In this document: piece by piece, positions 9,836 to 63,010 of the stretch
How positions within the stretch are numbered: position 1 is the first letter of the stretch
Layout of the letters: every line of letters begins with the position of its first letter
Assembly: GCA_944472155.2 (NCBI GenBank)
Contig: OX235277.1
Location: 16,874,804-16,938,803 of the forward strand
DNA length: 64,000 bases
Origin: Trichobilharzia szidati
Taxonomy: Eukaryota; Platyhelminthes; Trematoda; Strigeidida; Schistosomatidae
Direction: 5' to 3'
Notes under the pieces: generated by a model
What the model was told of the DNA's origin: nothing
What the model saw: the letters and a program-made list of their open reading frames with translations, nothing else
The model's database searches: none
Program-made: the position numbers and the translations under genes

Positions 9836-10181
9836 AATTCAAACCACTTCCTACAATGAGGCGTACATGAATGATTGAAGGATATCACAAAACACACTTG
9901 AACTGATTGTATTTGAAAAAAATGTTTTGGCACACGCACGTTTTACACATTTCCATTCACAATTCACATATGTATTCCATTTTATTTGGGATTGTGTTTG
10001 ATTCTTCATTTCAACTATGATTTTTAATCAATTATGAAATGGTAAAACGTCTTCAAAAGCAAAAGTTTGGGAAAAGTATTAAAGCAATATAAACACTTAG
10101 AATATTGTTATACTCACCTTCAACAAGCGAATCAGCAATGAAAAAGGAAGAAGAAATAGCCAACAAATCAGTGAAAAACCA
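9836..10181 (-). pseudogene. micro-exon gene copy 1, start codon lost
   Basis: On the minus strand a hydrophobic first exon ends at 10118 with GAAG|gtgagt in phase 1. It is followed by a 15-nt exon at 9850-9836, GAAGTGGTTTGAATT, bounded by cattgtag and gtgagttaaac; the pair would add G-S-G-L-N. Compared with the copies at 33.0 and 62.9 kb, the ATG position reads CTG and one extra T follows it, so the usual start is gone; the nearest upstream ATG is in another frame. About 95 bp beyond the 15-nt exon the DNA changes to the Penelope/hammerhead tail, so later exons are missing. Confidence 0.55.
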
Positions 10182-10218
10182 GTTTTCAACCCAGAGACAG
10201 AAATGATCAAAGTCATCC

Positions 10219-10226
10219 CTTAAATA
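10219..10226 (-). promoter_or_regulatory. TATA-like element of micro-exon gene copy 1
   Basis: The minus strand reads TATTTAAG, about 40 nt upstream of the former start site. An inverted CCAAT (ATTGG) lies about 30 bp further upstream. Both are at the same spacing in the copies at 33.1 and 63.05 kb. Confidence 0.45.
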
Positions 10227-11004
10227 CTTGTTCTCGCGTTAAGCAACCAATAAAATTTCAGTTTCCAACAGAAAGCAGATATTATCAAAAGAAAGAAAAC
10301 TTTGAACACAAAACAAAGCAAATTTTCAGAATGTTGTTTAGAAATGTCACCTCCATCATTTTTGTTTTTCATCTCGCTCTTGTTTAGTTACTATTTTTAC
10401 AATCAATATGACATCAATCTCTGTCGCAGTAACAAGAAACCAAGATTCACTTCAATACGAAACCATAAACAAGTTAGGCAGAAAGATATTATCGTAATGT
10501 ATTCATTTCAACATTATTTTTATCGTGTAAGTACAAAATGACGTCTTACACAAAATAGAACGTTCTATGCGAATAGGGCGTACAAAAGCATGTGACGTTT
10601 GTAAACCTCAAAGCATCAAAATGTTGTATACAATCGATGAATTATTGCTGTTACTTGTTAGCTCATTCAGTCACCACATCATTAGCACAGCTTCATATCA
10701 GGGCTCAATAAGCAAAAAATATGTACATATATATCTAGTTGGATATTGTTGCATAGAAGACAGCGGGATTTACGTCCACAACTTTTGTATCTACTGTTTT
10801 GAATGGAGCATTAAGTGAGCAAAATACTCACTCATCTAACTTTAAACTTTGAAATTTGTCGTGCATATTATGCACGAGGCAATCTCATCAAATAGTATGA
10901 TACTGTCACGTAACAGATAAGCTAACATCCATTGATTCCTAAGGAATTCACAGATCAAGTATGTAAAGCTGATGATATAAACTGATTTTTCTGAGCATTC
11001 TCAG

Positions 11005-11155
11005 CTACAAATATATTTTCAGGTTTGTGTGAATGGATTCTCGAGGTGGTATGACATCATAATTGATGGATGCTTCACGTGCATATGCAGAGTCTGACTT
11101 TATGTTCTCCAGCGTCACGACAAACACATATAGACTGAATAACATTACGAATAAT
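11005..11155 (-). CDS. short conserved open frame upstream of micro-exon gene
   Basis: The minus-strand frame reads NEDSLFVMLFSLYVFVVTLE, then IKSDSAYAREAS and IHTNLKIYL. Its duplicate at 63978-63815 reads IILISLYVIVVTQEDIKSD, then YAHVASTDLDVI and HTNLQTYLEP. The start resembles a signal peptide (hydrophobic FSLYVFVV followed by polar residues). It sits about 0.85 kb upstream of the micro-exon first exon on the same strand in both copies. A weaker relative may be the plus-strand frame at 35870-36079 (DLDYAHVKSTEDY). Family unknown. Confidence 0.3.
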
Positions 11156-11185
11156 GAGTCTTCATTTGGCAAGGATATATATTTT

Positions 11186-11849: not shown

Positions 11850-12006
11850 ATTACACCACTAATTACAGCTTCCAGGAACTATAACACACAATTTTCACAA
11901 AGAATTTTACAGAAAATTTAGACACCTAAAGGATTCCTCCAATCATTTAACCAATTCTGCTTTCCAATTTCATACATTTGTTCCCCTTAATGAATTTAAA
12001 CAAAGC

Positions 12007-12140
12007 AACAACTACAGATTTTGCAGAATAAAATGGCACCATATTTTATTTCGTCGCCTTCTCTTCAGGGCAAAAAGATTATTAAATGTATCTACAATAA
12101 CAATTTAACATACTTACACAGAGTTCATTTTAAACAGAAA
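12007..12140 (+). repeat. left arm of the Penelope-like inverted repeat
   Basis: This 134-bp arm is an exact reverse complement of 12790-12923 as far as I can read it. It contains the segment gccttctcttcagggcaaaa. Confidence 0.8.
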
Positions 12141-12217
12141 TCAATCGATCAATATAGACATACACTAATAATATATGTATATATATATATATGCAATCTT
12201 GAACACAATTCCGAGCA

Positions 12218-12571
12218 TTAATAATCATACAAAATGATAACTGCTTCTTTCTGAACGCACAAATTAGGTTTTAGGCGCTTGATGGAAAAGGCTTCAGCAA
12301 ACTTAAGGAGCATTGAACTCGTTTGCTTATTGATAATTTTGAATGACTTTTCCACGTCCACCTCATGACTTGTGTCAAGAAGATGCCTGGCGATGGCACT
12401 GCCTAAAGCATTTGTTCCCTTTAGACGTAGGCTTTTTGGTACATGTTCAGAAAATCGTAGATATGCTCTTCTTTCTGTTCTTCCAATGTAACTGCTCCCG
12501 CAGATACATGTAAATTTGTATATACAGTTGGAGTTAACATGAGAAGGATATCTATCGATTTTTGATTGCAC
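12218..12571 (-). CDS. GIY-YIG endonuclease domain of Penelope-like element
   Basis: A 117-codon frame carries the Penelope-type GIY-YIG fold: the Cys pair and catalytic Tyr region CICGSSYIGRT, the Arg-rich RRAYLRF, and the EH of SEHVPKSL. It ends in the conserved tail KIINKQTSSMLLKFAEAFSI. In the family this domain nicks target DNA for element insertion and follows the reverse transcriptase. The upstream linker is in another frame near 12560, so the protein is no longer continuous with its reverse transcriptase. It is probably not expressed. Confidence 0.75.
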   Translation of the reverse strand: MQSKIDRYPSHVNSNCIYKFTCICGSSYIGRTERRAYLRFSEHVPKSLRLKGTNALGSAIARHLLDTSHEVDVEKSFKIINKQTSSMLLKFAEAFSIKRLKPNLCVQKEAVIILYDY

Positions 12572-12789
12572 CAGAGAGCAAGTTGTTCGAAAACGTGAAC
12601 GAGCTTAGCTGCAGGATAGGCTATGGCTAGTGATGTACTCAGCCTTCTGTTGATCATCGCTGCAATGTTTTCGCCTTTATAATCAAGCTCAAAGTAGATT
12701 GGCTTTTTCCTACTGTGATTAGTTTTTCATTTGCGACTGCAATGGGTACCTTCAAAGGTTTATCAATAATTATGGAAGATCTGCTGTTT

Positions 12790-12923
12790 TTTCTGTTTAA
12801 AATGAACTCTGTGTAAGTATGTTAAATTGTTATTGTAGATACATTTAATAATCTTTTTGCCCTGAAGAGAAGGCGACGAAATAAAATATGGTGCCATTTT
12901 ATTCTGCAAAATCTGTAGTTGTT
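12790..12923 (-). repeat. right arm of the Penelope-like inverted repeat
   Basis: Exact reverse complement of 12007-12140, with about 650 bp between the arms. Its outer edge abuts duplication E. Confidence 0.8.
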
Positions 12924-13714
12924 TCCAATTTCACTCAAAGTGTGAAGTGATACTACTTGCTTTTGGTGATCAGTAGTACGGTATAGAAATGAAAGTAATT
13001 TTTCATAATAATTATTATATGAATTTCGGCAATAAATAATTTATCGTGCAATTTGTATAGTTTTCTATGAAATAGATGAATCGAAAATGGAGCAGTGTAG
13101 AAATAATAAGATTAACATGATATTAGTGCCTCATGTAATAAACAGTCTGACGATTCGAATGAGACAAAGATGCTAAAAATTAAACTGAATTAAACAAATG
13201 TGAGGAGTGAAATAATGCAGAGTACAAATTACACTATTTATACACCTCTTTTAGACTGATAGATTTCATGATAGATTTCAATGAAGAAATCAACAATTTT
13301 TAGTGGGTAAAGTGTATTTTTCGAAGCATTATTCTCCTTTATGAATTTGTTTGGAGCCATGGCGAAAGTTGAAGAGAAATAAAACGGTTATATCCAAATG
13401 CTGTTCTTGCTCAACTCAAATTGCATACCGTCATATACACATTGAAATATATGCAACGCTTCACTTGACATTTTCTGTTTAAATTATGATGCATCTTCAA
13501 TATTCATTTGAATATTTTGAGTGGAATATTTTCAATGTACTACATATGTTCACTGTTGAGAATGAGACCCTAATGCACACAGCAACATACATTTTGTGTA
13601 AAAGACGATTTCTATCATTTCTAATGCAGTGACGTGTAAAACTGTTCCATCGATGCGATGACTTCCAATTTCTGTACACAGAAAGATAATATAAATAACG
13701 TCGAAATATTCCCA

Positions 13715-14530
13715 CAAACTGGAAGATATGCAAGCGAAAAGCAACAAGTTAGCAGAAGAAGCATCAAAGATAGGACTCCAGGTGAACATAGACGAAACAG
13801 AGGTGATGAAAATTCCTGGGCAACACCATCAACAGCAACAACAACAACAACTGACAACAATCAGCATAAATGGGAGGAACCTGAAAGAAACAACCTCCTT
13901 TACCTACCTGGGAAGCATCGTTTCAACTACAGGCGGAACTGATGGGGATTTCAAAGCAAAAATCGAAAAAGCAAGACAAGCTTTCACCACTCTCAAGTCT
14001 GTGTGGAGGTCAACGGCACCCAACACCAAAAATAGGATCCGGATTTTTAACTCCAATGTGAAGTCAGTCAGTGCTACTCACTATACGGATCAGAGACTTG
14101 CACTGCGCGTCATAAAAAGCATCTCAAACAAAGTACAGACCTTCATTAACAGTTGTCTTCGCTCAATACCACTCAAGATCAGATGGCCAGCCAGAAAAGT
14201 TCAGCAACAGAGATCTCTGGCAATGAGCGAACCAACCCAGCAGGAACCGATTGTGAAACAAATAGGCAGGAGGAAATGGAGATGGATTGGACATACTCTT
14301 AGGAAACCATCAAGTGACATCACTAGACAAGCCATTGAGTGGAACCTGAAAGGGAAGCGGCGAGTTGGTCGTCCAAGGGTGACTTGGAGGAACACATGTG
14401 AAGAGGAGATGAAAACGTGTGGGCAAACTTGGATCCAGGTGAAGACTCTAGCAGAGAACAGAACGCAATGGAGACGCACGGCCGAAGCCCTATGTTCCTG
14501 TAGGAATTAAAGGATACAATAATAATAATA
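13715..14530 (+). mobile_element. 5'-truncated RTE-clade retrotransposon, 3' part
   Basis: The open frame from about 13728 to 14510 covers only the region after the reverse-transcriptase catalytic core. Blocks include LAEEASKIGLQVNIDETEVM, TTSFTYLGSIVSTTGGTDGD, RRKWRWIGHTLRKPSSDITR and RVGRPRVTWRNTCEEEMK, typical of the C-terminus of RTE-type elements. A glutamine run is coded by a CAA/CAG repeat at about 13828-13855. The frame ends in CRN-stop, and a short AAT-repeat tail follows, as in RTE elements. A 7-bp ATTCCCA occurs at 13708-13714 and 14531-14537 and may be the target duplication. The element lacks endonuclease and core, so it is dead. Confidence 0.8.
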
Positions 14531-17583: not shown

Positions 17584-17931
17584 CAGTTTTCAATAATTCT
17601 CTTCCTGATATCCATCTGTGATCAACTTGTGAAAACAAATCTCATATTTAAAAAGGCAACCATTGAAAATTATTCTGATGCTCAACAGTGACTTGCTGCA
17701 GGATGGAGTTCCTTGGAGTTCGAGTGAGAAGTCGTGACCAGTGAGGTCCGTTCATGTAACACTTGTGAGTAAGGATGTCCCACTGATTTTATTGGTTGGG
17801 GTTGCACTAAATCACGAATTGAAAGAAGTTAGAATTCACTAGTCATTGAAACGTGTTTCAATGTCTGAATGATATACGAGCTTGCCTTGTAACCAGAAGG
17901 TCCTGGATTTAAGCCTTAGCATGCGCGCATC

Positions 17932-17976
17932 GCCAGTGATTCCTAATCTAGGATAACAGCTGTCAATTACATCCTG
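17932..17976 (+). ncRNA. eroded hammerhead motif in Penelope-like tail
   Basis: The plus strand reads CCAGTGATTCCTAATCTAGG then ATAACAGCTGTC. Helix II (TCC/GGA) is kept, but both catalytic boxes are altered (CTGATGA to CCAGTGA, GAAA to ATAA). It is the inverted counterpart of 9577-9613. Confidence 0.35.
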
Positions 17977-21711: not shown

Positions 21712-21969
21712 TTACTTAGACATCGATCTATTTACATAGTCAGTTGTTGGTGGAAAGTGAAAAGTAAGCAAACTGTATATTAAAGATTTGAAAGTAAAAA
21801 TGGAGTCACCATGTAAAATTTCTTCATTTTGTATTATGAAGGTCAGTATTGCAGAAATCTGATCAGTTATCTTGAGCTTGAATGTTGATGCATTCATACA
21901 TGCTTTGATTTTATATTGCACTACGGAAAACAACCACATTCGAATTTTGGATAATACGCAATAGGTCAC
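21712..21969 (-). CDS. short open frame, inverted partner of 6197-6382
   Basis: The frame reads on the minus strand and ends FHFPPTTDYVNRSMSK; its core IIQNEEILHGDSIFTFK stays open. See the entry at 6197. The neighbouring downstream exon remnant (21.29-21.08 kb, minus) has several stops, so any gene here is broken. Confidence 0.25.
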   Translation of the reverse strand: MTYCVLSKIRMWLFSVVQYKIKACMNASTFKLKITDQISAILTFIIQNEEILHGDSIFTFKSLIYSLLTFHFPPTTDYVNRSMSK

Positions 21970-22430
21970 TCACTGATGTCTTCAATTTTAAATACAGAGA
22001 TCATTAGATAAGTTCGTTCTGAAAGCTATTTAACTGTCTTCCGTAATAACAAGCAGTGTAGGGGAGTATAACATGATATATATATGTATATATACATGGT
22101 CATATAATATCTCTAAGATATCAGTCTCTTTCCAAACTTCACTATGGATTCTTCACAACTTTCGTCACCAGAGTATTCATACTTTAGAGTTAAATGAGGT
22201 ATGGCAAAGTAATACTACAACCTGTTTTTCAATATTTAGTGATTGCAGCCATAAAACTTAGTAGCTTCCTGGATTTAGTTGATGCCATCATCAATTTATT
22301 ATACAGATATGTGATTTTACCAGTTTTATGTGAAATGCATAAAATGATATGTTTTCAAATGTGTTTTTGATGGAATGCTCAGAGCACTCAAAACAACTTT
22401 CATTTTCGTGCATACGTTTTGAAGACTTAC

Positions 22431-22545
22431 CGTCATCTGTATTGAAAAATGAAAGCCTATTTTATTTTTGTCTACCAAAGCTTTGTCTAATTCGCTGTCA
22501 TGTCGTATGACCAGTGTAGAAGCGATGATCTTTACCAAAGTCATC
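22431..22545 (-). CDS. candidate exon, 115 nt
   Basis: It is bounded by a strong acceptor (tttctctttttatag) and a strong donor (ATGACG|gtaagtc). With one leading base the frame stays open as MTLVKIIASTLVIRHDSE, then LDKALVDKNKIGFHFSIQMT. The opening ATGACTTTGGTAAAGATC resembles the exon at 32192-32137 (GMTFEKITVDS), so the two may be paralogous exons. Family not recognised. In phase 0 it would instead end after 15 codons, which remains possible. Confidence 0.4.
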
Positions 22546-23165: not shown

Positions 23166-24499
23166 CTGCAAGAAACTATCAATGAATTGTGTATCGCGAA
23201 CCAAAAGAATGAGAAATGATACATAATTTAGAAAAACAGCATCAAATAAGAGTCTTGAAGTGGACTTCAGAGATGAATATACCGCACGAAATAGAGACAG
23301 AACCAAAGACTATGTTGAAAGTAGAATTAAATACAAGTGAATTTTAGAACGTATACATGCCACACTGTAACCCACATTATACACCGAAAAATCACTACGT
23401 AACTTCAGCATGAAAAAATTCAGTACTTGCGCTGAATAACTCACCAACAGTTTCTATTCCATGAAATAAAATGTGTTATATTTATAATCTTCTAAGAATT
23501 TGAGCATCAAAAATGTGTTTCAGATGTATTTCATTCAGAGTATGTGATGTCATTGTCACCAAAATTTGTTTGAATAAATGCTTCCACCAGGTCATTTACC
23601 CTAGTTGAGTGAGTTAAGTGACATCAGTCTGGATAACATTCTATTCACGCTTATTTAAACTCACGTCAGTTACATATCTCTTAAATGTTCAGTTCAAACC
23701 GTCTTTATCATGGGCTTTCAATAAAAATTGAATAAGTTGAAATAAGCAAGTTGATCGTTGTAAGAACTCACGAATGATTCCTGAGCAACAATGAAGACGT
23801 AAATATAGCTACAGTTTGAAAACAGTTTCTAATAATTTCTATTATATGTTCAATAAGATAATGTCACTTATTCAATGAGAAACACTTATCAGCCTAAATG
23901 GACCAAAGCAGGTTACGCAATGCTTTTGAAGTTACCATCTAGTGTCATATTACATACAATATGAAGCTTGGAAGAAACTGCTATCCAAAATACATTTGAC
24001 AATGCAATCTGTAATGCAATGAAACTAACAACCATTATTTCATCTAATTCATAAAACATTTTATTCGTTTACTCACGGGCTCTTTCTTCAAGTGAAAAGT
24101 GAAACAATTAATCTATGAGCAGAGAGCTGGAATCATGCTTTATTGAAATTCGTGTTGTTTTAAAATATGTTTGTGAAAACGCAGTGGAAAATTTCGATGC
24201 AGATAAATTCTTCTTCTGACTAGCGATCTAGTGACATCAGTTCCACCATAGTTATATGAAGCCTTGTAGGTAAAATGTCTCTGTGTAAGGTAGTAAGAGA
24301 ACTAAAGTCATATTTCAGTAACTACCCAGTTATTTGACTTATATCATTCAACCTAAGAAATTATGAAAATTGATGAATGCAACTTGAGAGAACTCAATCT
24401 AGAGAAACAATGAATAGGTAAATACTCAGCAGGGATGTTTAATCTCTCAGAAAATGTCTCTGGAGAGAGAATTTTCCAAAATCTAAACTCACTGAACAT

Positions 24500-24851: not shown

Positions 24852-24857
24852 CTTGCG
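24852..24857 (-). CDS. possible 6-nt micro-exon
   Basis: On the minus strand CGCAAG lies between a strong pyrimidine-rich acceptor (catttcttcctttctag) and a consensus donor (gtaagt). In phase 0 it would add R-K after the exon ending at 25023 (GTGCAG|gtgaga). The call rests only on splice-site strength. Confidence 0.3.
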
Positions 24858-25665: not shown

Positions 25666-25923
25666 ATGACGAAAAATGAAACCATACACTTAAGCAAACT
25701 GACAAGAGATAGTTATTTTACCAACTTAGTCAATGAAGAAGATTTGTTAAAAGATGATATGACTCACTATATTCTTCTTCAGAGAGAAAAAATTGAACAT
25801 ATTCAGTGTGTGACCCATTATATACACATCAATACAGGTAAAATTTATAAGTGTAAAGTCATTTGTTATCGGTGGAAAAACAATTCTGATATGATGCTCG
25901 CATTATTTAATGACGACGAATAA
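25666..25923 (+). CDS. open frame of 85 codons, unknown
   Basis: It begins ATGACGAAAAATGAAACC just after a possible acceptor (aaacctctcag). The frame is rich in charged residues (DSYFTNLVNEEDLLKDD, YIHINTGKIYKCKVICYRW) and ends NDDE-stop. It is on the strand opposite to the neighbouring candidate exons. No signal peptide or known motif is seen. It could be a single-exon remnant or chance. Confidence 0.3.
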   Translation: MTKNETIHLSKLTRDSYFTNLVNEEDLLKDDMTHYILLQREKIEHIQCVTHYIHINTGKIYKCKVICYRWKNNSDMMLALFNDDE

Positions 25924-26129: not shown

Positions 26130-26138
26130 CCATGAGAC
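26130..26138 (-). CDS. possible 9-nt micro-exon
   Basis: On the minus strand GTCTCATGG is flanked by ctgaattttag and the consensus donor gtaagt. In phase 2 it would keep the frame into the exon at 25173. It is supported only by its splice sites and its multiple-of-three length. Confidence 0.25.
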
Positions 26139-27199
26139 CTAAAATTCAGATGTGATTATAAATGTTAGTTATAAACTCTGACATCACCAAATAAATTTGT
26201 AGAATTGGTTGGATTCGATTAATTTTATTACATTATAATACAAGATTTGAAAATTCATAAATAATTTGTCACTCAGAGTAGCTTTCAGAAGACCCAAGAT
26301 AATTGAATCTCGACCACAAAATACTAACTTATATTGAATAAACCGTATGGATAAACTACAGATTCATGAATGACTCTGCACACTATTCCGCTGAAAGCAT
26401 TTTTCATAGTTGCTTTGATAAACTGCAAATGAGTTCTTTTGTCTTCTTTTCTCTGACTGAACTCCAAACATTGCTCAGCCTCTATTTATTTAAGATTCTT
26501 CAGGCAAGAAATCTCTAGTCTTTATTTGCCATTGCAAATGCTAATCTGACTACAGACTGATATGCAAGATAACCAATTTAAGGATTCAACACATATCACA
26601 TTTGAGAAGAGCTTGGGCTTGAAGCAAATTACAGCGTCTAGTAAAAATCTCATCACGAGTTTAAGTCAACTGATTCACTGTTATTTGTGTGTTTACCACG
26701 TCAAGACTCTCCGTGAATTGTGTCTTAGATTCGTCTTTGGTTATCTTGTTTGGTATTATTCACTCCTCCTAAGTATTCCAGAAAATACTGTGAAAACATT
26801 TAATGATTTTAGTAAATAGATGATTTACTTTTCACGCCTGTGTAAAAGAATGGCGTAAAAGTTTATATGCTAACTACATTTTTCTGAACAGTGAGTGTAA
26901 TCAGAATATGCAGAAGTCAAATTAAAGTACGATACTTTAATGGAATCATGCACTGCTTTTACATCACCCAGTGAAAGTGCTTTTATAAAAATGACTTCAG
27001 ATGAATATATCAAGTTTACCCAGAATTCCATGATCAATTTTTTCATCAGGTAAATTTACACAGAATCCTACTATTCTATATATCCATGAACATTCTTCTC
27101 AAGGAAATCCGATAAACACTGCAGAAAGTTGATTTAATGGGGAAACGTTATGTGGCATGGCGTATGTTTTAGAAAGCTTAAGGAAAAGCATCTTTCAAT

Positions 27200-28490
27200 T
27201 ATCGCCATGATTGTTCGTCCGCTGACCTCCATTTTTTATACATTTTTTCTCCACACCACATTTCCATTGCATTACCAATGTATTCACAAAGACTTGACTA
27301 CCTTTTATATCTAAACATCATGTCATGTATAAAATGTCATCGAACAGCTACATCTGTGAAATCATGATAAATCTCGAGATAAATTCCTCAGCGAGTATGT
27401 AATGAGGTATCCCAGTGAATATGAAGTTTTTATAATTTTTACTGCTTACGTCATCGAGCACAGACAGAATGTCAACTAATTCATGCATAGTCCATGGTTA
27501 AACCGTAAAAATCTTGACTGTTTTGTAGTTTTCGTAGGAAACTTTACAAACTCAGTGTTCACACAGTGCGTAGGCCGAACATAATCATTTACATCTTTTA
27601 TTATTTTCATGTGTTCATATATTTGAAACTAAACTGACCACACTAGAAAAATTCTAGAAATCTTACTTCTTTGAACTTCAGCTGTAGATTTTAAAATGAT
27701 TCAGTATACGTCACTGATAGAAGTGTTGACCGGTTTTAAATCTCTACATGTGACAACATTCACAACAAGTGAAAATGTTAACATCAAAAGGAAGCAAGTA
27801 TAAGGAAACCCTGCTCATAAATCTACTTATAACTTTGTTCACCTCTGAAATAATAATCATTCTTCTCAAGGATAATCACTGAACACTTAATAGTGTTTGC
27901 TTCACACAGAATATTGCTTTGATGTTTACTTCTAAAGTATCAGCATATACAACTTTTATTTATTACTATTTTTATTCATCCCTTTGCCTCAAGGTGAAGC
28001 ATACGGACTGCTTAGGATATTTCCATTGTGTTTCTAACATATCTATACAGACGTAATTGTTCACAATAATTTCATGTTTCGCCATCACTAAGTCAAATAT
28101 AAGATGATTTCATTCGAAACAAATTCCTCATTTTGTGGTCAAAGGGATCATGTTGCAAAGAATTCCAGTGAATATGAGCTGATTGTAATTCTTCAAGATA
28201 AATATACTACTGTTGCTAATAAGAATACCGGATTCACATGAATTATCAATGAACTACTTTACGTGTCACAGTTTAACTTATCAAACCTCGAATTACTGTT
28301 TTCAAGAATACTGTCAATTTGCAAAGTTTCACAGCGAAAGAGAGTTGAGCACAACAACGTTTTTCGCACTTTTCACATCACATGTTCGGATATATAATGA
28401 TGGTATTGGGAAAAATTTCAGAAAAATTTACCTTCCGTTAGATATCCTGGATCTACTGCAATATTTCAGCAAAAGTAATTTCAATGATTG
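27200..28490 (-). pseudogene. tandemly repeated, partly decayed exon block
   Basis: Two versions of one segment lie in tandem (about 27.5-27.2 and 28.2-27.97 kb), both containing CTTCATATTCACTGG or CTCATATTCACTGG. The second holds an open 37-codon piece at 28085-27972: MAKHEIIVNNYVCIDM, LETQWKYPKQSVCFTLRQRD, stop, after a possible acceptor (tttgacttag). Further upstream, CDVKSAKNVVVLNSLSL (about 28.4 kb) resembles the exon at 23165. Frames are broken in both versions. Likely older copies of the exons at 22.4-25.2 kb. Confidence 0.35.
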
Positions 28491-30423: not shown

Positions 30424-31980
30424 GTCCCTAAAATAAGTTCCATGTGTACATCAAATTAAAACTTTGTAGTGCCTTACAACAGAGTTGAGAGTAAAGAATT
30501 TTACATGCACTTCATATATACATAGTTCACAGATGAAAAAATTTATACTTCTCATTCAACAGCTGTGAGGAGAAGGCGACCATGAATGGATTCATGAATG
30601 CAGTCTCAGCAAAGAATTTGAGGTGAAGACAAGATTGAGATAACATGGATTTAAGAATAAAACTTGTGCAATCTGGCGGAGTATAATTCCATTGTGGGTA
30701 AAATTTATGTTGGTTAAGTCACAAAGTGTTATAAATTACTATTTACTGATGACGTTTCGAGCACTATTTATTGTTCATAATCATATCACGGTACTCACAC
30801 AACTTTCTAACTTCGTTTATATAATTCCATTATTTTCCATTTTTGGTTTGATTTGTAGTAGTAATTCACATATTTCCGATATGAGTGATGAGTCTTACTA
30901 CTCTAATGGACAATCATTTCCATTGTGATGAACTGTATTGTGCAGCATACCATCGACAAGGAGAAGACAGGCATATAAACTCACGTTCTGTGAAACCTGA
31001 AAAGAACAAATTTTTACATGGTCTTACCACTATACACTAATTTATAGAAGACACCTTTTCCGTCTTCATTACACAGCAATTTTATATCAAGCTGCCAATT
31101 ACCCACGATTCTACATTTTAGTCTAACGAATAGTTGCCAACTGGTTCAGATAGTATATGATATGCCCTCAGAGTCACTCTAGAGTAAAGATATAACACAA
31201 TGACTACATTATGTCATTATAGGTTTCCAGGCTGTAGGTGTTACGAAATTCCTGAAATAATTTAAACCCTGAATCATATTGATTCATTATAAATTATTTA
31301 AATTATTACCAGCGTGTTAAGAAAATCTTGTTTTGACCTCATGAATGCAAGCCAGATTCTCATTTAGGTCTTGTGAGCCATTAAATATAAAAAAGTAATA
31401 CTGGCTTCTGATTCAAATGAGTGCCATATGGGAATGATAAGATTTCTATCAGGATATATGTACCGGAAAAAATGATGTATTTATGGACTCTCATCATCAA
31501 ATAATTTAATTGTTCAAAGTAATTCTAGAGAACATTGGTCCAACTTAAATCCATACATGCCTGCAGACTTTTAAACACGCGGTCCTTCAGTTTCAAAATA
31601 AAGGAAACCGTTCAATCAATTATCTGTATCGAACTAAAATTTAAATCACAAGTTTTTTGCAGACCTTGCAGACTAGAAATTCACAAACACTGATAATCCG
31701 CTACCAGTTTCATCATGCTTAATTTGACTTCACACAATTGCCTGTTTCATACAAAACTCATTGAACCTATGGGGTAATACATGCCATATTTGATTTAAAT
31801 AAGGGCGAATAAGTGAGATTTTTAAGCACACAGCAAAAAATTTAGCGATTTTAGCCACGAAAATTCATTTGAGCATATGCGAGGAACGAAATGAAATGAG
31901 TGTCAGAAAGAATACTGATGTTGACAACTTTACTGAATTTATTGTGTAAAACCCAAATTATAAACATTTTACAGATGACT
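30424..31980. other. no supported gene
   Basis: A plus-strand frame at 30692-30928 is hydrophobic and without motif. If the gene at 33.1 kb continues through here on the minus strand, its exons were not recognised. Confidence 0.3.
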
Positions 31981-31991: not shown

Positions 31992-32012
31992 ATTTAAACA
32001 TATTTTCCACTT
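31992..32012 (-). CDS. candidate 21-nt micro-exon, paralogue of 32451-32471
   Basis: The minus strand has acceptor tttttacatag and consensus donor gtaagtcc around a 21-nt segment. In phase 1, the phase used by the gene at 33.1 kb, it reads x-VENMFK, close to x-ETMFRK of the 21-nt exon at 32471-32451. The equal length, phase and related peptide suggest a tandem exon duplication. In the phase left by the exon at 32102-32077 it would give a stop, so inclusion order is unclear. Confidence 0.45.
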
Positions 32013-32450: not shown

Positions 32451-33081
32451 TTTTTCTGAACATAGTTTCAGCTGTAGAAGATTAATACGATAATACTCTG
32501 GAAAGTAGTGTTATAGTTTTTCATATATTTCGCTGATTATATTTTGAAAACCTGCCTGAAATTATATACCTAAATTGAATGTCTCTGATTGAGTCCTCAC
32601 TGTAAACACAGCAGAGTCACAATTAATCTGGTTGTTTACATGAACTAGAACTTATCCAGTCCTAAACTGATAACAAGGAGTTATGTGTAGCGACAAATGA
32701 ATAATTATTATAATTCAAAACAGTGTTTAACTCACAATTCAAACCACTTCCTACAATGAAGCGTACATAAATGATTGAAGGAGATCACAGAACACACTTG
32801 AAGTGATTGTATTTGGAAATAAATTGTTTGGCACACGAATGTTTTACACATTTCTATTCACAATTCATAGATGTAGTCCCTTTCATTAGAGATTGTATTT
32901 AGTTCTTGATTTCAACTATGATTTTAATCAATTATGAAATGGTAAAACGTCTTCAGTAGCAAAAGTTTGGGAAAAGTATTAAAGCAATATAAACACTGAG
33001 AATATTGTTATACTCACCGTCAACGAGCATAGCAGCAATGAGAAAGGAAAGAGGAGTAGCCAACAAATGAGTGAAAACCAT
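32451..33081 (-). CDS. micro-exon gene (MEG-like secreted protein), best-preserved copy
   Basis: Exon 1, 33081-33018, is 64 nt: an ATG, a signal peptide (MVFTHLLATPLSF followed by LIAAMLVD) and GACG|gtgagt in phase 1. Exon 2, 32750-32736, is 15 nt after cattgtag and adds G-S-G-L-N. Exon 3, 32599-32570, is 30 nt after tctgctgtgtttacag, reading LRTQSETFNL. Exon 4, 32471-32451, is 21 nt after cttctacag and before gtgagtg, reading AETMFRK. All internal exons are multiples of three in phase 1, so any can be skipped without a frameshift, the defining feature of schistosome micro-exon genes, which encode variable secreted proteins. Further candidates lie at 32192-32077 and 32012-31992; the 3' end was not found. 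No family number is assigned. Confidence 0.75.
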
Positions 33082-33613
33082 GCTTCGTCTCAGAAGGAGA
33101 AATGATCAAAGTCCTCACTTAAATAGTTGTTTTCGCGTTGAGCAACCAATAAAATCTCAGTTTTCAACAGAGAGCAGATTTTATCACAGCAAAGCATTCT
33201 ATCATCATTACATTGATCAAGTTGTCAGAATGTTGTTTAGAAATGTCATCTGCTACATCTTTGACTTTCATCTTGCTCATGTTTACTTACTATTTTTACA
33301 ATCAGTCTGACAGCAATCTCTGTCGCAATAAAAAGATAAACAAGATTCACTTCAACACGAAAGCATAAATAAGTTAAGCAGAAAGATATTATGGTAATGT
33401 ATTCATATTTATATTATTTTTTATCGTGTAAGTACAAAATGTTGTCTTACACAAAATAGAATTTTCTATGCGAATAGGGCGTACAAAAAGCATGTGACGT
33501 TTGTAAACCTCAAAACATGAAAATGTTGTGAAGCATCAATGAATTATTGATGATACTTGTAAGCTCGTTCAGTCAACACACCATGACCACAGCTTCTTAT
33601 AAGGCTTTAATAA
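32641..33613. repeat. micro-exon gene 5' unit, duplicated
   Basis: About 950 bp matches 9742-10690 and 62560-63530 in the same orientation. The unit spans part of intron 2, exon 2, intron 1, exon 1, promoter and upstream DNA. On the low side the match ends inside intron 2; on the high side it ends at the Penelope-like fragment near 33613. Confidence 0.75.
33118..33125 (-). promoter_or_regulatory. TATA-like element of the 33.1-kb micro-exon gene
   Basis: TATTTAAG on the minus strand lies 36-44 nt before the ATG. An inverted CCAAT (CAACCAATAAAA on the plus strand) lies about 30 bp further upstream. Both are kept in copies 1 and 3, and the TATA-like part also occurs at 39837-39844. Confidence 0.5.
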
Positions 33614-37755: not shown

Positions 37756-38084
37756 GTTTGTTCTACGCATCTGACTGCTATTTCTATTTCCATTTTCACT
37801 GCTGGTATACTTGTCATTGGTGAGCATAACAATGTTCCCAGTGATCATATTGTCTCATTTTTTTCACTACATTTTGTTTCTGAGTGAGTTTTATCAACTC
37901 ATAATTGATTAAAATCAACGTTGAAATAAAGCATTGAGGACCATCTCCAATAAAATGCAATCCATCTGTGAACTGAATAAATATGCGGAAAATATATATT
38001 TACTAAATATTTGCACATGTGATCAGTTCAAGTGTTGGTGATGTTCGCTACTTAATTGCCTCACTGTGAGAAATGGTTGGAATT
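37756..38084 (+). pseudogene. decayed micro-exon gene copy
   Basis: 37756-37819 is a 64-nt version of the signal-peptide exon (THLTAISISIFTAGILVI) ending ATTG|gtgagc, but the start codon reads GTT. About 250 bp on, 38070-38084 is a recognisable 15-nt exon (GAAATGGTTGGAATT) whose acceptor AG has become GA and whose donor is gtgcgt. The upstream TATA-like element is not recognisable. The copy is therefore dead, lying 2 kb upstream of the intact plus-strand copy at 39882. Confidence 0.55.
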
Positions 38085-39881: not shown

Positions 39882-40220
39882 ATGGTTTCTCAGCGTTTGA
39901 TAGGAGTTATTTTTGCTGTCTGCATCGTCCGTGAACTGGTTGATGGTGAGTATACCCATTTTCCGAATTATGATATTACTTTCTTGCTTACTGAAAATTG
40001 TCGTTTCTGCATATGTTTAACCAAGCCGTGTGTAAATAAAACACGGCCGAAATGAATAAATGAGGACTATTTTTAATGGAATGAAATACAACTGTGGTCC
40101 TATTAAACAGAACGTACAGAATATATGTATGGATTGCACATAAAATTTGTAGAGTTTAGGTGTAGCTGATGTGATCTTTAATCTTTCATATATACTCTAT
40201 TGTAGGTAGCGGCACACAAA
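39882..40220 (+). CDS. micro-exon gene (MEG-like secreted protein), 5' exons
   Basis: Exon 1 runs 39882-39945: 64 nt, starting ATGGTTTCTCAG, with the hydrophobic core LIGVIFAVCIV of a signal peptide and GATG|gtgagt in phase 1. An in-frame ATG also exists at 39867, but the later one matches the position in the other copies and the TATA spacing. Exon 2 at 40206-40220 is 15 nt (GTAGCGGCACACAAA) between attgtag and gtgagttaaac, adding G-S-G-T-Q. Exon 1 has the same length as at 33081, yet its peptide differs, so this copy is more diverged. Later exons were not identified with confidence; candidates of the exon-2 type lie at 46751 and 47677. Confidence 0.7.
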
Positions 40221-46750: not shown

Positions 46751-46765
46751 GAAGCAGTTCAGCTG
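46751..46765 (+). CDS. 15-nt micro-exon
   Basis: GAAGCAGTTCAGCTG between gtcattgtag and gtgagttaaac. In phase 1 it reads G-S-S-S-A. The acceptor, donor and the TTAAAC just inside the intron match exon 2 of the copies at 9.84, 32.7, 40.2 and 62.7 kb. It may be a later exon of the gene at 39882 or exon 2 of a copy whose first exon was not found. Confidence 0.5.
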
Positions 46766-47676: not shown

Positions 47677-47691
47677 GAAGCGGTTCGGCTG
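47677..47691 (+). CDS. 15-nt micro-exon, second tandem copy
   Basis: GAAGCGGTTCGGCTG after atcattgtag reads G-S-G-S-A in phase 1. The donor is gtcagt instead of gtgagt, weaker but possible. The 154 bp after it lead into the gap. Confidence 0.4.
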
Positions 47692-56238: not shown

Positions 56239-57278
56239 GCCTTCCTTGAATTTTAGCCAGACCGATGCGTATAAAAGTGGTATGTTCAAACATTAATTAC
56301 ACTGTGGCTGTAGGAAATGCACATCTCAGTATTCTATTATTCTGTTTACCTTTCCCTCATCACTATGATTATGACTGGTATTGTGGTTAATATTATTATT
56401 CTCACTGAACTATTCCTAGTAATATTTCACTTGGCCCATTTTTCAATCGAAAGATTTTCCAAAGATTCTTTCCAACGTTGAATTCTATGACATCAAATTT
56501 CTTATCGTGTTAAGTCACGTTTCTTATTTGTCTAGTAATCTTCTAATTTACAACACCTTTCAACATCTATACATCTCATGGAGTAATTTATATCTGAACT
56601 TGTTGTTGTTGTTCAACAACTTAAAATTTAACTATGATTACAAAAATGGATATTTTAGATTGTATTTCATTATATCGTATTATATATACTCACTTTCGTT
56701 TAAATTTCTTAAAAGTATACGATTTTTTAAAATCCATATATATGTATAAGGTCATATATGGATTGCAGATCTTGATAATAAATCCTTTGAAAACGATCTG
56801 TTCGCTGAATAGCATGTACAAAGTAATAAAACAGCAATCATTACACTATTGACAAAGACAACCGGGTTCGTATATTTTTACGTTCGGTAGTTGATTAAGG
56901 ACTCAGATCAGATCACGAGCTGAATTAAGCTTTCATTCAACACTCCATGAATATTTTGCTGCTAATCCAAGTATGCCATACCAGACGGAAGTATTATCTG
57001 ATGAATCTATTTGGGGAATATTTATTTTTTGTGAAAATTAACTACTAACAACGAATAGAGTAGTATCAGAATGATTTAAAATTTATGAATTCCTGTAGAG
57101 ACAGCTCCACTAAATGGCACGCGTTTCAGTTACATTTGATTTACTGTATAAGCAATCTCATTAACGTTGTATAGTCGAGAACAGCTAAGCAAATTGGCTG
57201 TTAATTCTGAAGTTTAAATATCTTTATGAGTAGTGAACAGGTAGTGAAGATTGCAGAAGCGCAACACTTAAAAATTTA

Positions 57279-57472
57279 TTTTATTTTTTAAAATTTTTTT
57301 TATTTTGATTTACAGCTTGATTCCACACCGTATTTTCAGTACAAGTGTGGAATTTTCAGCATGGATATCGGTAGCCCAAATTCAGGCCGACCATAGATAT
57401 CGGGTGAGCGCCGGCAGGGGATCGAACCCCGGACCATGTGCATGGTCGGCGAGAGTCCTAACCACTGTGCCC
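57279..57472 (-). mobile_element. tRNA-derived SINE, tail type 2
   Basis: Minus-strand copy of the 35133 SINE: head near 57395-57472 with a B box (GGTTCGATCCC), body with CCGATATC and GGTGTGGAATCAAGCT, and a long A/T tail at 57279-57312. The duplicate near 3567-3600 is empty, which sets the borders within a few bases; about 10 bp of the target seem lost. The acceptor stem is eroded. Confidence 0.75.
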
Positions 57473-58144
57473 GTCTACTGAGAGAGAAGTGATGTCTATC
57501 TGCATGAAGCACCCAAACATCTGGAATTATTCCATGTTTCAGGTTAATAGTCACACATTTTACCCTATGTCATGGGTAAATATAAATAACAGTAGATGAG
57601 AAGAATACTTCAAGGTATAGTGTTTCCATCGATAGATAGAGACATACCATTCAACTGAAAACTGAACGAAACTGAAGAAGCCACTGAATGATATAGAGCT
57701 GACATTTAACAACCTGATAAAAATGATATGACATCTGTATTCGCTTGCTAATGGAGTATTGAACTGTGATTAAATGGGAAAAAAATATTCCTTTTGAACA
57801 CATTGTCCGTATCACACCACCATAATGTGTCTGGTTAATTATATTTGGTATATGAAGCGCCATTGTCCAAGTATCAGTTATGAATGTTTCATAATTATTG
57901 ACTTATTTGCTTGAGTTCTTACTGAAGTACTTGTATTTCGGTTGACACATGAGTAGCAAGTTGCTTTTCAGAGCATAAAATAAGGAAATACGCGTAGGTC
58001 TCACCATTGGAAAGCCAATTACCTATGATGATATACAGGTTCTGGAAGATGCTGTAAATTTCACCATTGATCATAGCAATGCCAATTCCATTTTGAAAGA
58101 CCATATCCAAGTGGTTTCAGTGACCCAGTTGTCCAAAAATAATA

Positions 58145-59290
58145 TATAATCCCCGGAAAATGCAGTCAGCAGGGTCTTACTGACAGGATCTGATGTGGAC
58201 AGAGGAGGCAGTCATTCTACTAGTGAGGTCAAAACAGTCTTTACAGCAGAGTTATGGTGGCAACTTGATAGAAACTGACCTGAAACCTGAAGCAGGTCGG
58301 GCAACGAAGGTAGGAAAATCGCAAAACAAATGCGTCGACTTCGTGCTCAGTATGAAAGTGGTTTAGTAAATATAACTTCGAGGATGATGGTAGCGGAAAA
58401 AAGTGTACAAGCCTGTTGGGTGACTTGAAAAACTAAATTGATTTTCTTTGCATTATTCTGAACATTCACAGGAAGAATGCCCTATGTGACATAAAACTGA
58501 GAGAAATGGTTTTCACAGGAAAAATTAAATTAGTGTCAAGGCATGCATAGGTGACGAATGGATGTTAACAATCACACAGATAATGTCGTAGAGAAAATAC
58601 AATCCTGAATAGCCATAAACCAGGGTACTAGACTAATTAAAAGAGGAAAATTAAGAACGATCAAACGATCGTCAAAAATAAACACATTTGATTTCTGAAA
58701 CACGAATGTAAAAATGCAAACAAGATTGACAGAATCTTGCAAAGACGTCATATAGAGGTGACGAGAAGGATTGGAAATCTACTCGTCACTTCCAGGCAGA
58801 TTGACGGAGTTTAGTCTCCCAATTCTTTCTAATCATGACTGATTCTACACAGATTAATTCAAAGTAATTTATTATACTGTAATAATTTTCTGACATACCC
58901 TGCAAGCTCACCATTATTATTACTTGAATTAGAATTTCATTTGCATACATTCGTAACAAAGTTACGTGTAACTGGAGAACTACTTCATCTGTGATGATTA
59001 TTGTGCTGTTGTTAGTCCTGATGACAATGATGACGTTGATGATATCATTCCATAGATATTAGGGACTTTTTCAGTTGGCGATTTCACTTTAGGTGTGCTT
59101 TGAGATGATGATTCAACTTGAGAATACGAAAGATCAGTTCGCTAACTGAATATGAATGACATGATTAGAATGAGTTGTGTTAAAACATAAGATTCATGCA
59201 AATAAACCACACCACCCATTATTCTTGTTTGAAGAGTTATGGTTAGCGTAATGCACTTAGCTAGTACAATAATCATATAACAGGGAAAAT
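58145..59290. other. unassigned DNA with one protein-like fragment
   Basis: At 58320-58430 the plus strand reads KQMRRLRAQYESGLVNITSR, then MMVAEKSVQACWVT-stop, of plausible protein composition but with no family or splice context that I can support. Nothing else was recognised before duplication B resumes. Confidence 0.25.
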
Positions 59291-59601
59291 TTAGTATCAT
59301 ACATTTCGATGACTGTATTATATCGCTCACTTCAGTGTGAACCTCGCTGATATAACCCAGTCAAGATAACTAAGTGCTAGACATCAATCAGAACCAGTGA
59401 TTAGGAAAGATGAATAACATTTGAAATTCTATTTCAAAACTTCGTTACGATCCGTTATTTGATTCAATCTATTCTATTTGAACTCCTCTTTTTATCATTA
59501 TTATTTTAAAGTTAAGCAAAATACGAAAGTGTGATTTTACAGGGTTAACACTTTAAATTCATGGTGTCACTCTCTTAGCAATGATATGGAATGATTGATT
59601 G

Positions 59602-59814
59602 GATCATGAACGTATATCGGATGATACGTCCCATAGAAGTGAAATGTTTCAGGAGAGATGGGATGAGGCTATCCATTTGTGTACCTACGTGGAGAGAATG
59701 TTTTTCTTCATTCATCAATGTTTTGTGGATGCTCAAAGATGTACATTCGAATTTCAGATGGCCATTGACGGAGCGTATGGTCAGCGTCTGTCAAACTCCC
59801 CTACTTTTCTTTAA
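59602..59814 (+). CDS. open exon of an unrecognised protein family
   Basis: The frame reads DHERISDDTSHRSEMF, QERWDEAIHLCTYVERM, FFFIHQCFVDAQRCTFEF, QMAIDGAYGQRLSNSPTFL, stop. A stop lies just before it, and a possible acceptor (gatacgtcccatag, at about 59634) would start the exon at A|AGT GAA ATG. Decayed copies at 6.85 kb (one stop) and 21.2 kb (several) follow the same frame, and the exon at 25.17 kb has a related core (ADQKCKLEF). A different plus-strand frame (59591-59857) overlaps it but is not kept in the copies. Function unknown. Confidence 0.45.
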   Translation, partial: DHERISDDTSHRSEMFQERWDEAIHLCTYVERMFFFIHQCFVDAQRCTFEFQMAIDGAYGQRLSNSPTFL

Positions 59815-62404
59815 ATCTATTGAACAATACACTAACTCTTCAGTTGCATTATTGTGAAAGTCAAGTTCATGACCCACTTACAAGAATTACAGTCTAACTG
59901 AAGATAACAGAAGAGGATGAATGGTGCCTAATATATTTTTCTCAAATGGTTGATAGAGGACGTACGTTTCCACCTCATTATTATCGCAGGGTCTTTGAGA
60001 TGTAACCTCACTGCAGACATTTGAATGATTCGAAAACAAACATCAATGTTTAACATATATCCACATCATTATCATACATGTCAGGGATGGCAAGAATAAG
60101 ACTTTCTGTTGCATACATAATAATACAGATGATTTGTACCTCAGGTGTGTGTTTTTATACAGTGTTGTTCTGTGATCTCCTCAGTTTGATCATGATGTAA
60201 CCGTCTAGAGGGAAGTTGAAAGCTTACAAACTAAATTAATCAAATCAGAGAACACATACAGAGAAAAAGAATCACGATTGTACTGAACCTTCCCGTATTG
60301 TAGCGCTCACTTGACTCGCTTCAGGAAATAAATTAATCAAGACACTATACATCGATGCTGTAATTTAAATTCACATATGTTCACTCATCCATTGTGCAGT
60401 AGGAATCAGTTGATATTTTGAGTTTAGCTACGAAAAACAATCATCGAAATCTTATCCAAAGTGACCTGATCACAATATACACTGAAAATCGACACATAGT
60501 TTGTGAGGAGGTATTCATTATTGAAAAGTTTATGATGAAACCTCATGTTCAATAATGTCGTACGTTTACTAAACGACTGTCCACATTTCGGAATATTTTC
60601 AGTTCTTTACATAAATGAGGCGCTCCTTATTGTTCACACATTTTGCGGAGACCATGTTCTCTTGTGTAAAAATATGTGCCATTTCTACATTTTTATCTAT
60701 TATATTGTTTGAACGAGTTAAGTTACCTCCTTTCTGAAGTAGACGACTTTTCATAAAACAGTTTCGGTGTATCAAATACGAGTTCCCTTCAAGGTGTTTG
60801 TTAGAATTACAATTCAAAACTGGCTACATTAAAGAGAAATATTTGCTTTATTTATCAAAATTTTGTAAAGAGACATTTGTATACACATTTATCAAGGGAT
60901 AAACATATTTGTATTTTTGATTTACAGAAGGCCAGCAGATTACCCAAAAAGAGGTTCACTGAAACAAAATCTTCAACATGAAAATTATGTGTTCAAATTG
61001 TTACTTTTTACAAGTGAATTTCACTGTCTTCTAAAATAACTTTTTAATATAACAAACCACATCTGGAACTATTCGACGTGTGCATTTCTTTTGATTTTGA
61101 AATAACTCATAAGCAATTAACACTCAAAAAATAAATAATTCACAAAGGAAATTTATGTACACAAACGGAGGTTTCTACCTAAAATGAAGGAAAAAGCACA
61201 GTATCGAAAGTTTATTAGCAATTCATTTTAGGAATCGTGGTTGTTAAAAGTTAACTGTTTTGTTTTCCACTATTCAAAATATTCTATATGCGGAAGAGTT
61301 TAGGAAAAATACCAACACATGGCCATAATTCTTGCTCGAAAATAATAACACTTCACACTGATTTATGCAAGAATCTATTGGATTGTTTTCAAAAACACCA
61401 GGAATAAATCATGTCATATCAAACCATAATTAAACCATTTATCAGAATCATCGTCAATCAATGAATAACCGGATAACTCAATTAATTAAGAGTGAAATAT
61501 AGTCTACTTGACAAAAAGGACAATATACTCCATAGAACCATATGGCATATATGTCAGTGATGATCCTCCTCTGTTTCAAAGTATGCTGAACTCATGAAAT
61601 AGCTTCTTAATCATTGAGAAACCACCGAAAAGTCAATTTTTATAATACATGAAATAGATCTATCACTAAGTCAATATATTTATCAGACCGAGGGGATATA
61701 GATTCGCAAACGTGGTATCTTCTTACACTACTTATCTCTTGCAGAGATATCACTCATAAATATCTTTCTCTCCGAGAATATACCCGCAGTATACAGTAAA
61801 CGAAAGCAATTGAAAGACCACTACAAATAGTGTTAATGAAATATCTTTCGACATAGGACGGCGAAAATTTGTAGCTCAAGAGAGTAACATGTTGGTCAAT
61901 TTGAGTTCTCCGAGCTGTACTGATTTGTTGTGAAGCCTTCATTGGTTAATCACACTTGGAGAAAGCAATAAGAATTCTTGCAAAGAGACGAAAACATGTT
62001 AACATTACTCATGATGTCATGGATCTATTTCATAACTCTTACATCGGTGGAAATTTAGGAATAATTTCTTAAGACTGTATTCTTATAAGATGCTAACCTC
62101 CGAATCAACTTACTTAATCAAAAGACCTCAGTGAAACCAAAAGAAAAAATGTCACACCAGATATAAAGAACATATTAATAATCATCGGAAGACAACTCAA
62201 TGCTTGTGTGAGTGAAATCTCTCCCCCACAAACCAAAACATTACTTCGCTTGTTTTATGTGAATCGAAAGACTTGACAGCGAAAGTAGACTAAACCAACA
62301 TCATCTACACGATAGATTTCACCGCCTTTGCAAATTATTACATTAGCCATAGTGAACGTTCATCTTCGACTTTGCATCAATGAGCATAAATTAAACATGA
62401 AAAC

Positions 62405-62441
62405 ATGGACAGCTGTTTCATCCTAGTTTGGGAATCATTGG
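62405..62441 (-). ncRNA. degenerate hammerhead motif in Penelope-like tail
   Basis: Same sequence as 9577-9613 on the minus strand: CCAATGA, TCC/GGA helix II with a CAAACTA loop, then GAAACAGCTGTCC. The flanking GIY-YIG remnant (about 62.29-62.39 kb) is more eroded than at 9.5 kb. Confidence 0.5.
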
Positions 62442-62664
62442 CAATACGCACCTACTCGGGCTCAAATCCAGGACCTTCCGGTTACAAGGCAAGCTCGTAT
62501 ACCATTCGAGCACTGGGACACGTTTCAATGGCTCATGAATACTCATTCAACCAATTCGCGATTAAGAGTTGAACTAGAACAAATCAAGTCTCAACCTGAA
62601 AACAAGGAGTCATGTGTAGGGACAAATGAATAATTATTATAATTCAAAACAGTGTTCAACTCAC

Positions 62665-63010
62665 AGTTCAAACCACTTCCTACAATGAGGCGTACACGAA
62701 TGATTGAAGCAGATCAAAGAACACACTTGAACTGATTGTATTTGGAAATAAATTGTTTGGCACACGCATGTTTTACACATTTCTATTCACAATTCATAGA
62801 TGTAGTCCCTTTAATTAGGGATGATATTTAGATCTTGGTTTCAACTTTGATTTTAATCAATTGTGAAATGGTAAAACGTCTTCAAAAGCAAAAGTTTACG
62901 AAAAGTAATGAAGCAAAATAAACACCTAGAATATTGTTATACTCACCGTCAACAAGTATACCAGCAATGAGAAAAGAAAGGGTGATAGCCGACAAATGAG
63001 TGAAAATCAT
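62665..63010 (-). CDS. micro-exon gene copy 3, 5' exons
   Basis: Exon 1, 63010-62947, is 64 nt with an intact ATG and signal peptide (MIFTHLSAITLSF followed by LIAGILVD), ending GACG|gtgagt in phase 1. Exon 2, 62679-62665, is GAAGTGGTTTGAACT between cattgtag and gtgagttgaac, giving G-S-G-L-N. About 100 bp beyond exon 2 the DNA switches to the Penelope/hammerhead tail, as in copy 1, so exons 3 and 4 of the 33-kb gene are not present here. It may be a truncated gene or may splice to unknown exons. Confidence 0.6.

Follow-up and report, generated by a model that had tools for sequence, protein, structure and literature searches.

A large array of predicted micro-exon gene copies on one contig of Trichobilharzia szidati, with five 5' ends in a 64-kb window

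Micro-exon genes (MEGs) are among the candidate means by which blood flukes deal with the defences of their hosts, and their annotation by automatic means is hard because the exons are so small. In the available sections of PMC8293314 and PMC5825161, the hallmark of a MEG is a coding region made up mostly of short symmetric exons (≤36 bp), and about 80% of MEG coding sequence is placed in micro-exons (PMC5825161). MEG introns are described as about 0.1-5 kb long, shorter toward the ends of the gene and longer in its middle (available part of PMC10526429). From Trichobilharzia szidati 10 MEG transcripts have been reported (PMC6362228) and from T. regenti four, MEG-4, -8, -9 and -26 (PMC5825161). 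Some of the Trichobilharzia MEGs were reported as not close to those of Schistosoma mansoni, and the available sections of these two reports describe no array. A MEG array in Trichobilharzia was not found in the open-licence PMC literature, which is no proof of absence. Here we analyse a stretch of 64,000 nucleotides from T. szidati (GenBank assembly GCA_944472155.2, contig OX235277.1, positions 16,874,804 to 16,938,803 of the forward strand; hereafter the window), in which a preliminary description had recognised five copies of a MEG-like 5' end. These five loci are very probably the 5' ends of predicted MEG-family copies that are spread over about 3 Mb of the contig (C7 in our genome scan) and that would likely encode small secreted peptides. 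By the architectural tests run on its predicted exons the family is of MEG type, and it is not assignable to any of the named families MEG-1 to MEG-32.

The S. mansoni MEG-2 cluster on chromosome 3, as described in the available part of PMC10526429, likewise consists of clustered paralogues that have a leader peptide, long introns and mostly short symmetric exons, of 15 nt or other lengths. That cluster comprises eight consecutive genes on the leading strand, whereas in the array in T. szidati 69 same-strand clusters were counted among the scored matches, on both strands over about 3 Mb. Copies that consist of a 5' end only and convergent inverted pairs are features of the present array, unlike the MEG-2 cluster as portrayed there. 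No link to MEG-2 by sequence was found, the named MEG sequences not having been directly compared. In the MEG-3/Grail system, according to the available text of PMC8293314, an SM-alpha-like element flanks an additional micro-exon of 9 bp in MEG-3.1. The two systems are alike in the gain of micro-exons by duplication, which in T. szidati is seen at locus L024 (exons 3-4 present three times) and at locus L025 (exon 5 present twice), and a hammerhead below the Rfam cut-off, a hallmark of SM-alpha elements, lies in an intron at locus B. They differ in that here whole cassettes were multiplied, the cassettes differ among paralogues, and no element has been shown to flank the duplicates. The array is far larger than those described in the available sections of the S. 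mansoni cluster papers. If our reading is right, a bird schistosome carries on one chromosome a MEG array far above those clusters in size, and its paralogues show which exons are the most variable. They would then make it possible to test directly if this variation is driven by exon duplication and gene conversion, and would provide lineage-specific candidates for the biology of swimmer's itch.

Self-comparison of the window and alignment of its loci confirmed that the five loci, at 10.1 kb (A, minus strand), 33.0 kb (B, minus), 37.8 kb (C, plus), 39.9 kb (D, plus) and 62.9 kb (E, minus), are mutually homologous. The ATG is kept in B, D and E and lost in A and C, as the preliminary description had it. 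In B, D and E the ATG and an open 64-nt stretch with a GTGAGT donor are followed by a predicted 15-nt exon, across an intron of 267 nt (B and E) or 260 nt (D). Exon 1 of B (33018..33081, minus strand) would encode a hydrophobic leader and is followed by exon 2 (32736..32750, peptide GSGLN). E is intact as well (exon 1 at 62947..63010 and exon 2 at 62665..62679, minus, GSGLN), and D is an intact but divergent copy (39882..39945 and 40206..40220, plus, GSGTQ). The pattern ATG-61nt-GTRAG with AG-15nt-GTRAG no more than 330 nt downstream occurs on the two strands of the window in B, D and E only, against a chance expectation of 0.1 such pairs per 127 kb (60 dinucleotide resamples). Ranked by hydropathy only among 762 open 21-codon ATG stretches, the predicted leaders fell in the top 7.2% (B), 2.5% (E) and 2.4% (D). 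A TATTTAA motif lies at -44 from the ATG in B (33119..33125, minus; predicted core promoter) and E and at -45 in D. It is also found in A (10220-10226, minus) and is not present in C.

A and C, judged from their sequence, are broken copies. The exon-1 relic of A (10118..10181, minus) has no ATG and, relative to B, D and E, carries a 1-nt insertion right beside the former ATG; it measures 64 nt solely when counted backward from the donor. The claim of a 64-nt exon with a gtgag donor in all five copies is sound for B, D and E and needs this qualification for A. Exon 2 of A (9836..9850, minus, GSGLN) retains both splice sites. In C the exon-1 relic (37756..37819, plus) lacks the ATG, and the exon-2 relic (38070..38084, plus) has GA in place of the acceptor AG, a second donor GTGCGT, and would read G-N-G-W-N, so the 15-nt G-S-x-x-x exon described for every copy is found at four of the five loci. 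The common 64-nt length reflects shared descent and not five independent events. Two lone copies of exon 2 had escaped the preliminary description. One (46751..46765, plus, GSSSA) has intact splice sites and no exon 1 was found nearby; the other (47677..47691, plus) reads GSGSA and has the donor GTCAGT. Both sit within a tandem duplication (78% identity) that adjoins a 500-base assembly gap (47846-48345), and because the gap comes right after the tandem, further copies may have been lost there.

To place these loci in the genome, 1,113,721,179 bases in 907 contigs were scanned; the scan scored best candidates only, and more divergent copies, on C7 or elsewhere, fall outside its counts. The A module gave 40 matches, all on C7 at 14.08-17.05 Mb (best 40 of 115 candidates scored), and the region of B exons 3-4 gave 44 matches, all on C7 at 14.12-17.08 Mb (best 40 of 87 candidates scored). 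Joining matches within 6 kb of each other produced 69 same-strand clusters among the scored matches, on both strands of C7:14.08-17.08 Mb. The family had been proposed to be both expanding and decaying; the expansion goes far beyond five copies, and the decay is real in A and C. Within the window, the A 5' module (9741..10711, minus) is homologous to 32641-33613 (B) and 62570-63537 (E). The three modules have about 970 bp in common, with coinciding borders, and B matches A and E at 86-87% identity. Past the downstream border, A and E continue into a block that recurs at 17807-21901, and the sequence of B is different. A and E also lie in a segmental duplication (6467-11167 versus 59286-63991, 85%), and further duplicated blocks are found at 1806-4242 versus 53352-58141.

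Convergent pairs of 5' ends account for nine pairs among the 40 listed places, and a tenth pair is present in L021. The arms of the inverted pairs are 90-99% alike over about 460-1160 bp at the nine loci examined, and the spacers between them measure 1.3 to 6.5 kb. Among 31 exon 1-2 modules, identity was 93.3-100% for pairs within one locus (9 comparisons) and averaged 89.4% between loci (95th percentile 93.5%, highest 97.9%, 456 comparisons). The higher identity within pairs would be expected after gene conversion or a recent inverted duplication, with some overlap of the two ranges. Cassettes within gene bodies are also duplicated: the exon 3-4 pair occurs three times in order in L024, with exon 4 at 24, 24 and 21 nt, and exon 5 occurs twice in L025. 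Cassette duplication may also have produced the lone exon-2 copies near D, or these may be its relics.

Downstream of its 5' end, B extends for more than 10 kb, with predicted micro-exons that are symmetric, 6-21 nt long and arranged in a chain; the preliminary description did not mention them. The chain emerged from a mechanical scan for an acceptor, an open phase-1 segment with a length that is a multiple of three, and a donor. At the stricter threshold there were 8 candidates at 21.5-33.0 kb on the minus strand versus 7 across the remainder of both strands. In 100 resamples no 11.5-kb stretch held more than 4 candidates; the B stretch holds 8, of which 7 were retained and one, at 22018, was dropped. 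When the B region was scanned by length class, 9 candidates were divisible by three, and 1 and 4 fell in the two other classes. The looser threshold gave 15 candidates 3' of exon 2 and, with the other strand of this region scanned likewise, 2 there. Twelve of the 15 were kept as exons 3-14 and three, at 31036, 22018 and 24008, were left out.

The predicted exons 3-14, all on the minus strand, are exon 3 (32451..32471, 21 nt), exon 4 (31992..32012, 21 nt, and 24 nt in two of the L024 copies), exon 5 (30985..30996, 12 nt), exon 6 (27667..27681, 15 nt), exon 7 (26829..26837, 9 nt), exon 8 (26130..26138, 9 nt), exon 9 (25768..25776, 9 nt), exon 10 (24852..24857, 6 nt), exon 11 (24077..24085, 9 nt), exon 12 (23772..23780, 9 nt), exon 13 (23445..23453, 9 nt) and exon 14 (22431..22436, 6 nt). 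The introns before exons 2-10 measure 267, 264, 438, 995, 3303, 829, 690, 353 and 910 nt, and those leading to exons 11-14 measure 766, 296, 318 and 1008 nt. The last intron found is not short, and the sizes agree with those given for MEG introns in the available part of PMC10526429. Exons 2-14 make up 150 of the 214 predicted coding nucleotides (70%, the last exon not included), each 6-21 nt long and a multiple of three, and the predicted coding region accordingly consists mostly of short symmetric exons. B is nearly a whole predicted gene, its 3' end only predicted. A terminal exon may lie at 21966..22018 (minus), a weak candidate with an acceptor kept in B, L027 and L014 and a stop that ends the frame at differing positions.

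Several other candidates were rejected. The acceptor of the 9-nt candidate at 31036 is kept in 0 of 9 paralogous copies, and the comparison with paralogues is therefore capable of failing a candidate. Read as a 45-nt internal exon, 22018 contains stops in both homologues (L014 and L027). The 51-nt candidate at 24008 (donor GTATGT) has a single homologue and was not adopted. A 47-aa read-through at 22436 as the end of the gene stops immediately in L027.

For the comparative test 20 stretches were fetched (L009-L028), covering 28 of the 37 listed A matches outside the window. These stretches define the counts for exons 1 and 2 and the divergence values below; L029, an additional stretch close to B with its exon 1 outside the fetched sequence, was added for the splice sites of exons 3-14. 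Because A itself has no ATG, choosing stretches by their match to A does not favour intact copies. Intact 5' ends are the rule in the fetched copies: among 29 copies of exon 1 all have the ATG, 23 are open and 64 nt long, and 21 of those 23 have a GTRAG donor. Exon 2 is 15 nt in 29/29 copies and has both AG and GT in 28/29. In exons 3-14 the acceptor AG is kept in 55 of 56 homologous copies and the donor GT in 55 of 56. Outside exons in the same alignments AG is kept at 70.8% and GT at 71.3% of places, and for GTRAGW motifs outside exons the GT is kept in 37 of 46 (80%). Every one of the 86 copies of exons 2-14 has a length divisible by three, with an in-phase stop in one of the 86, and L029 has exons 2-13 present and in order. 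The proposed micro-exon architecture is supported by this retention of splice dinucleotides and frame in the paralogues of the downstream exons of B.

A still looser threshold gave 56 open candidates, 38 of them with at least three homologues and 8 with both sites kept in all homologues. Five of the 8 are exons 4, 6, 7, 8 and 9, and a sixth is exon 9 in a shorter form. Another, at 25526, marks a 9-nt exon of the paralogues with an acceptor that is altered in B, and the remaining one, at 25448, which has a poor donor, was not retained. One site is missing in one copy of exon 3 and likewise in one copy of exon 5, and these two exons therefore miss this stricter all-homologue test. If our reading is right, close paralogues let MEG exons be recognised from splice-site and frame conservation alone, without RNA.

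Divergence from B was 24.6% in exons 3-14 (162/659 sites), 15.0% in their flanking introns (1300/8650) and 3.0% at their splice sites (12/403). The most significant single exon, with the strongest excess of exon over intron divergence, was exon 5 (39/96 versus 176/1460 in its flank). Exon 1 also exceeds its flank (246/1853 versus 310/3294), with a mean dN of 0.129 and dS of 0.070 over 18 distinct open sequences. A fast-evolving mature coding part, as expected of a MEG, is therefore seen on pooled exons 3-14, with mixed results for single exons.

A number of observations weigh against the interpretation of B and its relatives as MEGs. All splice junctions are predictions from sequence, and the splice-site tally is restricted to the 12 candidates kept out of 15. 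Support thins toward the 3' end: exon 10 has paralogues in L017 and L029 and exons 11-13 in L027 and L029, two each, and exon 14 in L027 only. The terminal exon is a weak candidate, and the first candidate considered for it is broken in L027. For each of exons 2, 3, 6, 9, 11, 12 and 14 (7 of 13) by itself, divergence does not significantly exceed that of intron, and because the paralogues share history the p-values, including the pooled one, overstate independence. Between B and E, exons 1 and 2 gave a dN of 0.109 and a dS of 0.328 (26 codons), opposite to diversification, and exons 3-9 gave erratic dN/dS ratios (dS 0.04-0.49; 10 pairs, 25 whole codons) that are too noisy to use. Among A-E, exon 1 was more conserved than intron 1 in 0 of 10 pairs. 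The identity ranges of the 5' modules overlap, the lowest pair being at 93.3% and the highest comparison between loci at 97.9%. The predicted B product (68-aa and 111-aa versions) had no match in a protein search that needs exact 5-residue words, in what would be a fast-evolving family, and neither a Pfam scan nor a PDB search found a relative (best E 0.49).

The anatomy and the divergence pattern are as observed; transcription, splicing, secretion and function would follow the MEG literature, as far as its available sections go (PMC10526429, PMC5825161, PMC4350168, PMC8293314 and PMC6362228). Transcription would start near the TATTTAA at -44/-45, a TATA-like promoter, and give a short first exon, and exon 1 would supply a signal peptide. 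The symmetric exons of 6-24 nt could be included or skipped with the frame intact, which would yield short secreted peptides in families. Variants would be supplied by duplication of genes and of cassettes and by homogenisation of inverted arms, and variation of the peptides would be under host selection. A more elaborate model is diversification at three levels, with near-invariant splice sites around hypervariable exons of 6-24 nt, tandem cassettes, and the many 5'-only copies of the 3-Mb array, a good part of them in nearly identical inverted pairs, as a reservoir for gene conversion of expressed genes, comparable to the antigen-gene archives of protozoan parasites. We regard this model as speculative and rather doubtful.

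The copies that continue into a gene body include B, L017, L024, L025, L026 and L029. In others, among them A, E and the majority of arms in the convergent pairs, a different block takes over after exon 2. The exon-3 motif was found within 1.6 kb of fetched sequence from exon 2 at 9 of 32 places and at none of the other 23, and 9 of the 40 listed 5' ends have a listed gene body within 6 kb downstream. Copies such as E that consist of a 5' end only are likely to be truncated genes or sequence donors.

An alternative view of such copies is that the family is a short gene of two exons, in which exon 2 reads past its donor for about 28 codons to a stop in most copies and specifies a secreted peptide of about 50 aa, the sole product of the 5'-only copies and an alternative end for the full ones. 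Counted from the donor, 24 codons of the read-through frame are free of stops in 28 of 32 copies, and neither of the other two frames is open in any of the 32. Drift from an open ancestor would be expected to leave about 65% of copies open. The stop is at the same place in most copies. An open ancestral stretch alone would, however, yield much of this signal. The read-through stretch is under little constraint (dN 0.160, dS 0.219; 27 distinct sequences), 28 of the 29 copies compared retain AG before and GT after exon 2, and the full copies carry conserved exons downstream of it. Selection on the read-through is thus weak at best, and a two-exon gene is improbable as the general explanation; with the frame open in 28 of 32 copies, a short alternative product is still conceivable.

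The loci could also be neutral segmental duplications, untranscribed and decaying, with splice-like patterns inherited from one dead ancestor. The mosaic of duplicated blocks in the region, the broken state of A and C, the lack of stronger conservation in exon 1 than in intron 1 among A-E, and the 6 of 29 compared exon-1 copies that are not 64 nt long are all consistent with this. It does not account for AG and GT kept in 55 of 56 copies each over a background of about 71%, for the absence of frame-breaking lengths among 86 copies, or for pooled exon interiors that diverge faster than introns. Splice sites and frame kept alongside faster exon divergence argue against passive decay, and we consider neutral duplication very unlikely. 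Slighter still is the chance that a mobile element captured the promoter and leader exon of a MEG and that the exon 1-2 module is its terminal inverted repeat. Nine convergent pairs among 40 listed places, with arms of 460-1160 bp that are 90-99% alike, and module borders common to A, B and E would fit such an element. The listed copies (best 40 candidates scored) are, however, confined to one 3-Mb interval of a 1.11-Gb genome, the spacers are of uneven length (1.3 to 6.5 kb), and 9 of 40 listed 5' ends precede a listed gene body within 6 kb.

Downstream of exon 2 of A and E the comparative scan found no B-like chain, only isolated weak candidates. The candidate at 59893, read as 57 nt, has both sites in 9 of 11 homologues; those at 2225 and 53775 (15 or 21 nt) have both sites in 4 of 4 each, and the one at 5004 (9 nt) in 4 of 4. 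Some other isolated candidates there with both sites kept have broken frames. A 12-nt reading at 7111 and 59893, present in both A and E, failed the homologue test. These isolated candidates are presumably background. The block beside the 5'-only copies A and E (6193-9737 and 59286-62566, with a further copy at 17807-21901) is 3.3-4.1 kb long and looks non-coding, and a tRNA-like stretch, seen by eye, lies at one end of it. A near-palindrome of about 350 bp occurs near the 5' modules at seven of nine loci (L009, L012, L014, L019, L020, L021 and L022), and most of these seven have a 125-150-bp repeat beside it. The near-palindrome may have been an agent of the inverted duplications.

The window also contains mobile elements. 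A non-LTR retrotransposon at 53985-56064, with a reverse transcriptase domain (PF00078) and a DUF6451-like tail below the cut-off, is inserted within one copy of the segmental duplication that holds A and E. The best matches of its reverse-transcriptase open reading frame (ORF; 53985-55142) are T. regenti proteins (84% over 76%), and a protein search returned 1231 proteins with E ≤ 0.001, the best in Trichobilharzia, which by itself would make a bird schistosome the likely source. A 3' fragment of a second retrotransposon lies at 13695-14510 (DUF6451 match, E 5.8e-11). A type I hammerhead ribozyme is found at 1544-1588 (minus), and another below the Rfam cut-off at 30146-30190 (minus), within the B intron that separates exon 5 from exon 6. 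Two identical inverted arms of 134 bp (12007-12140 and 12790-12923, 100%) enclose an ORF of 128 aa (12218-12604, minus) with no Pfam match above the cut-off, which presumably resembles the GIY-YIG end of a Penelope-type element. This element looks like a very recent insertion.

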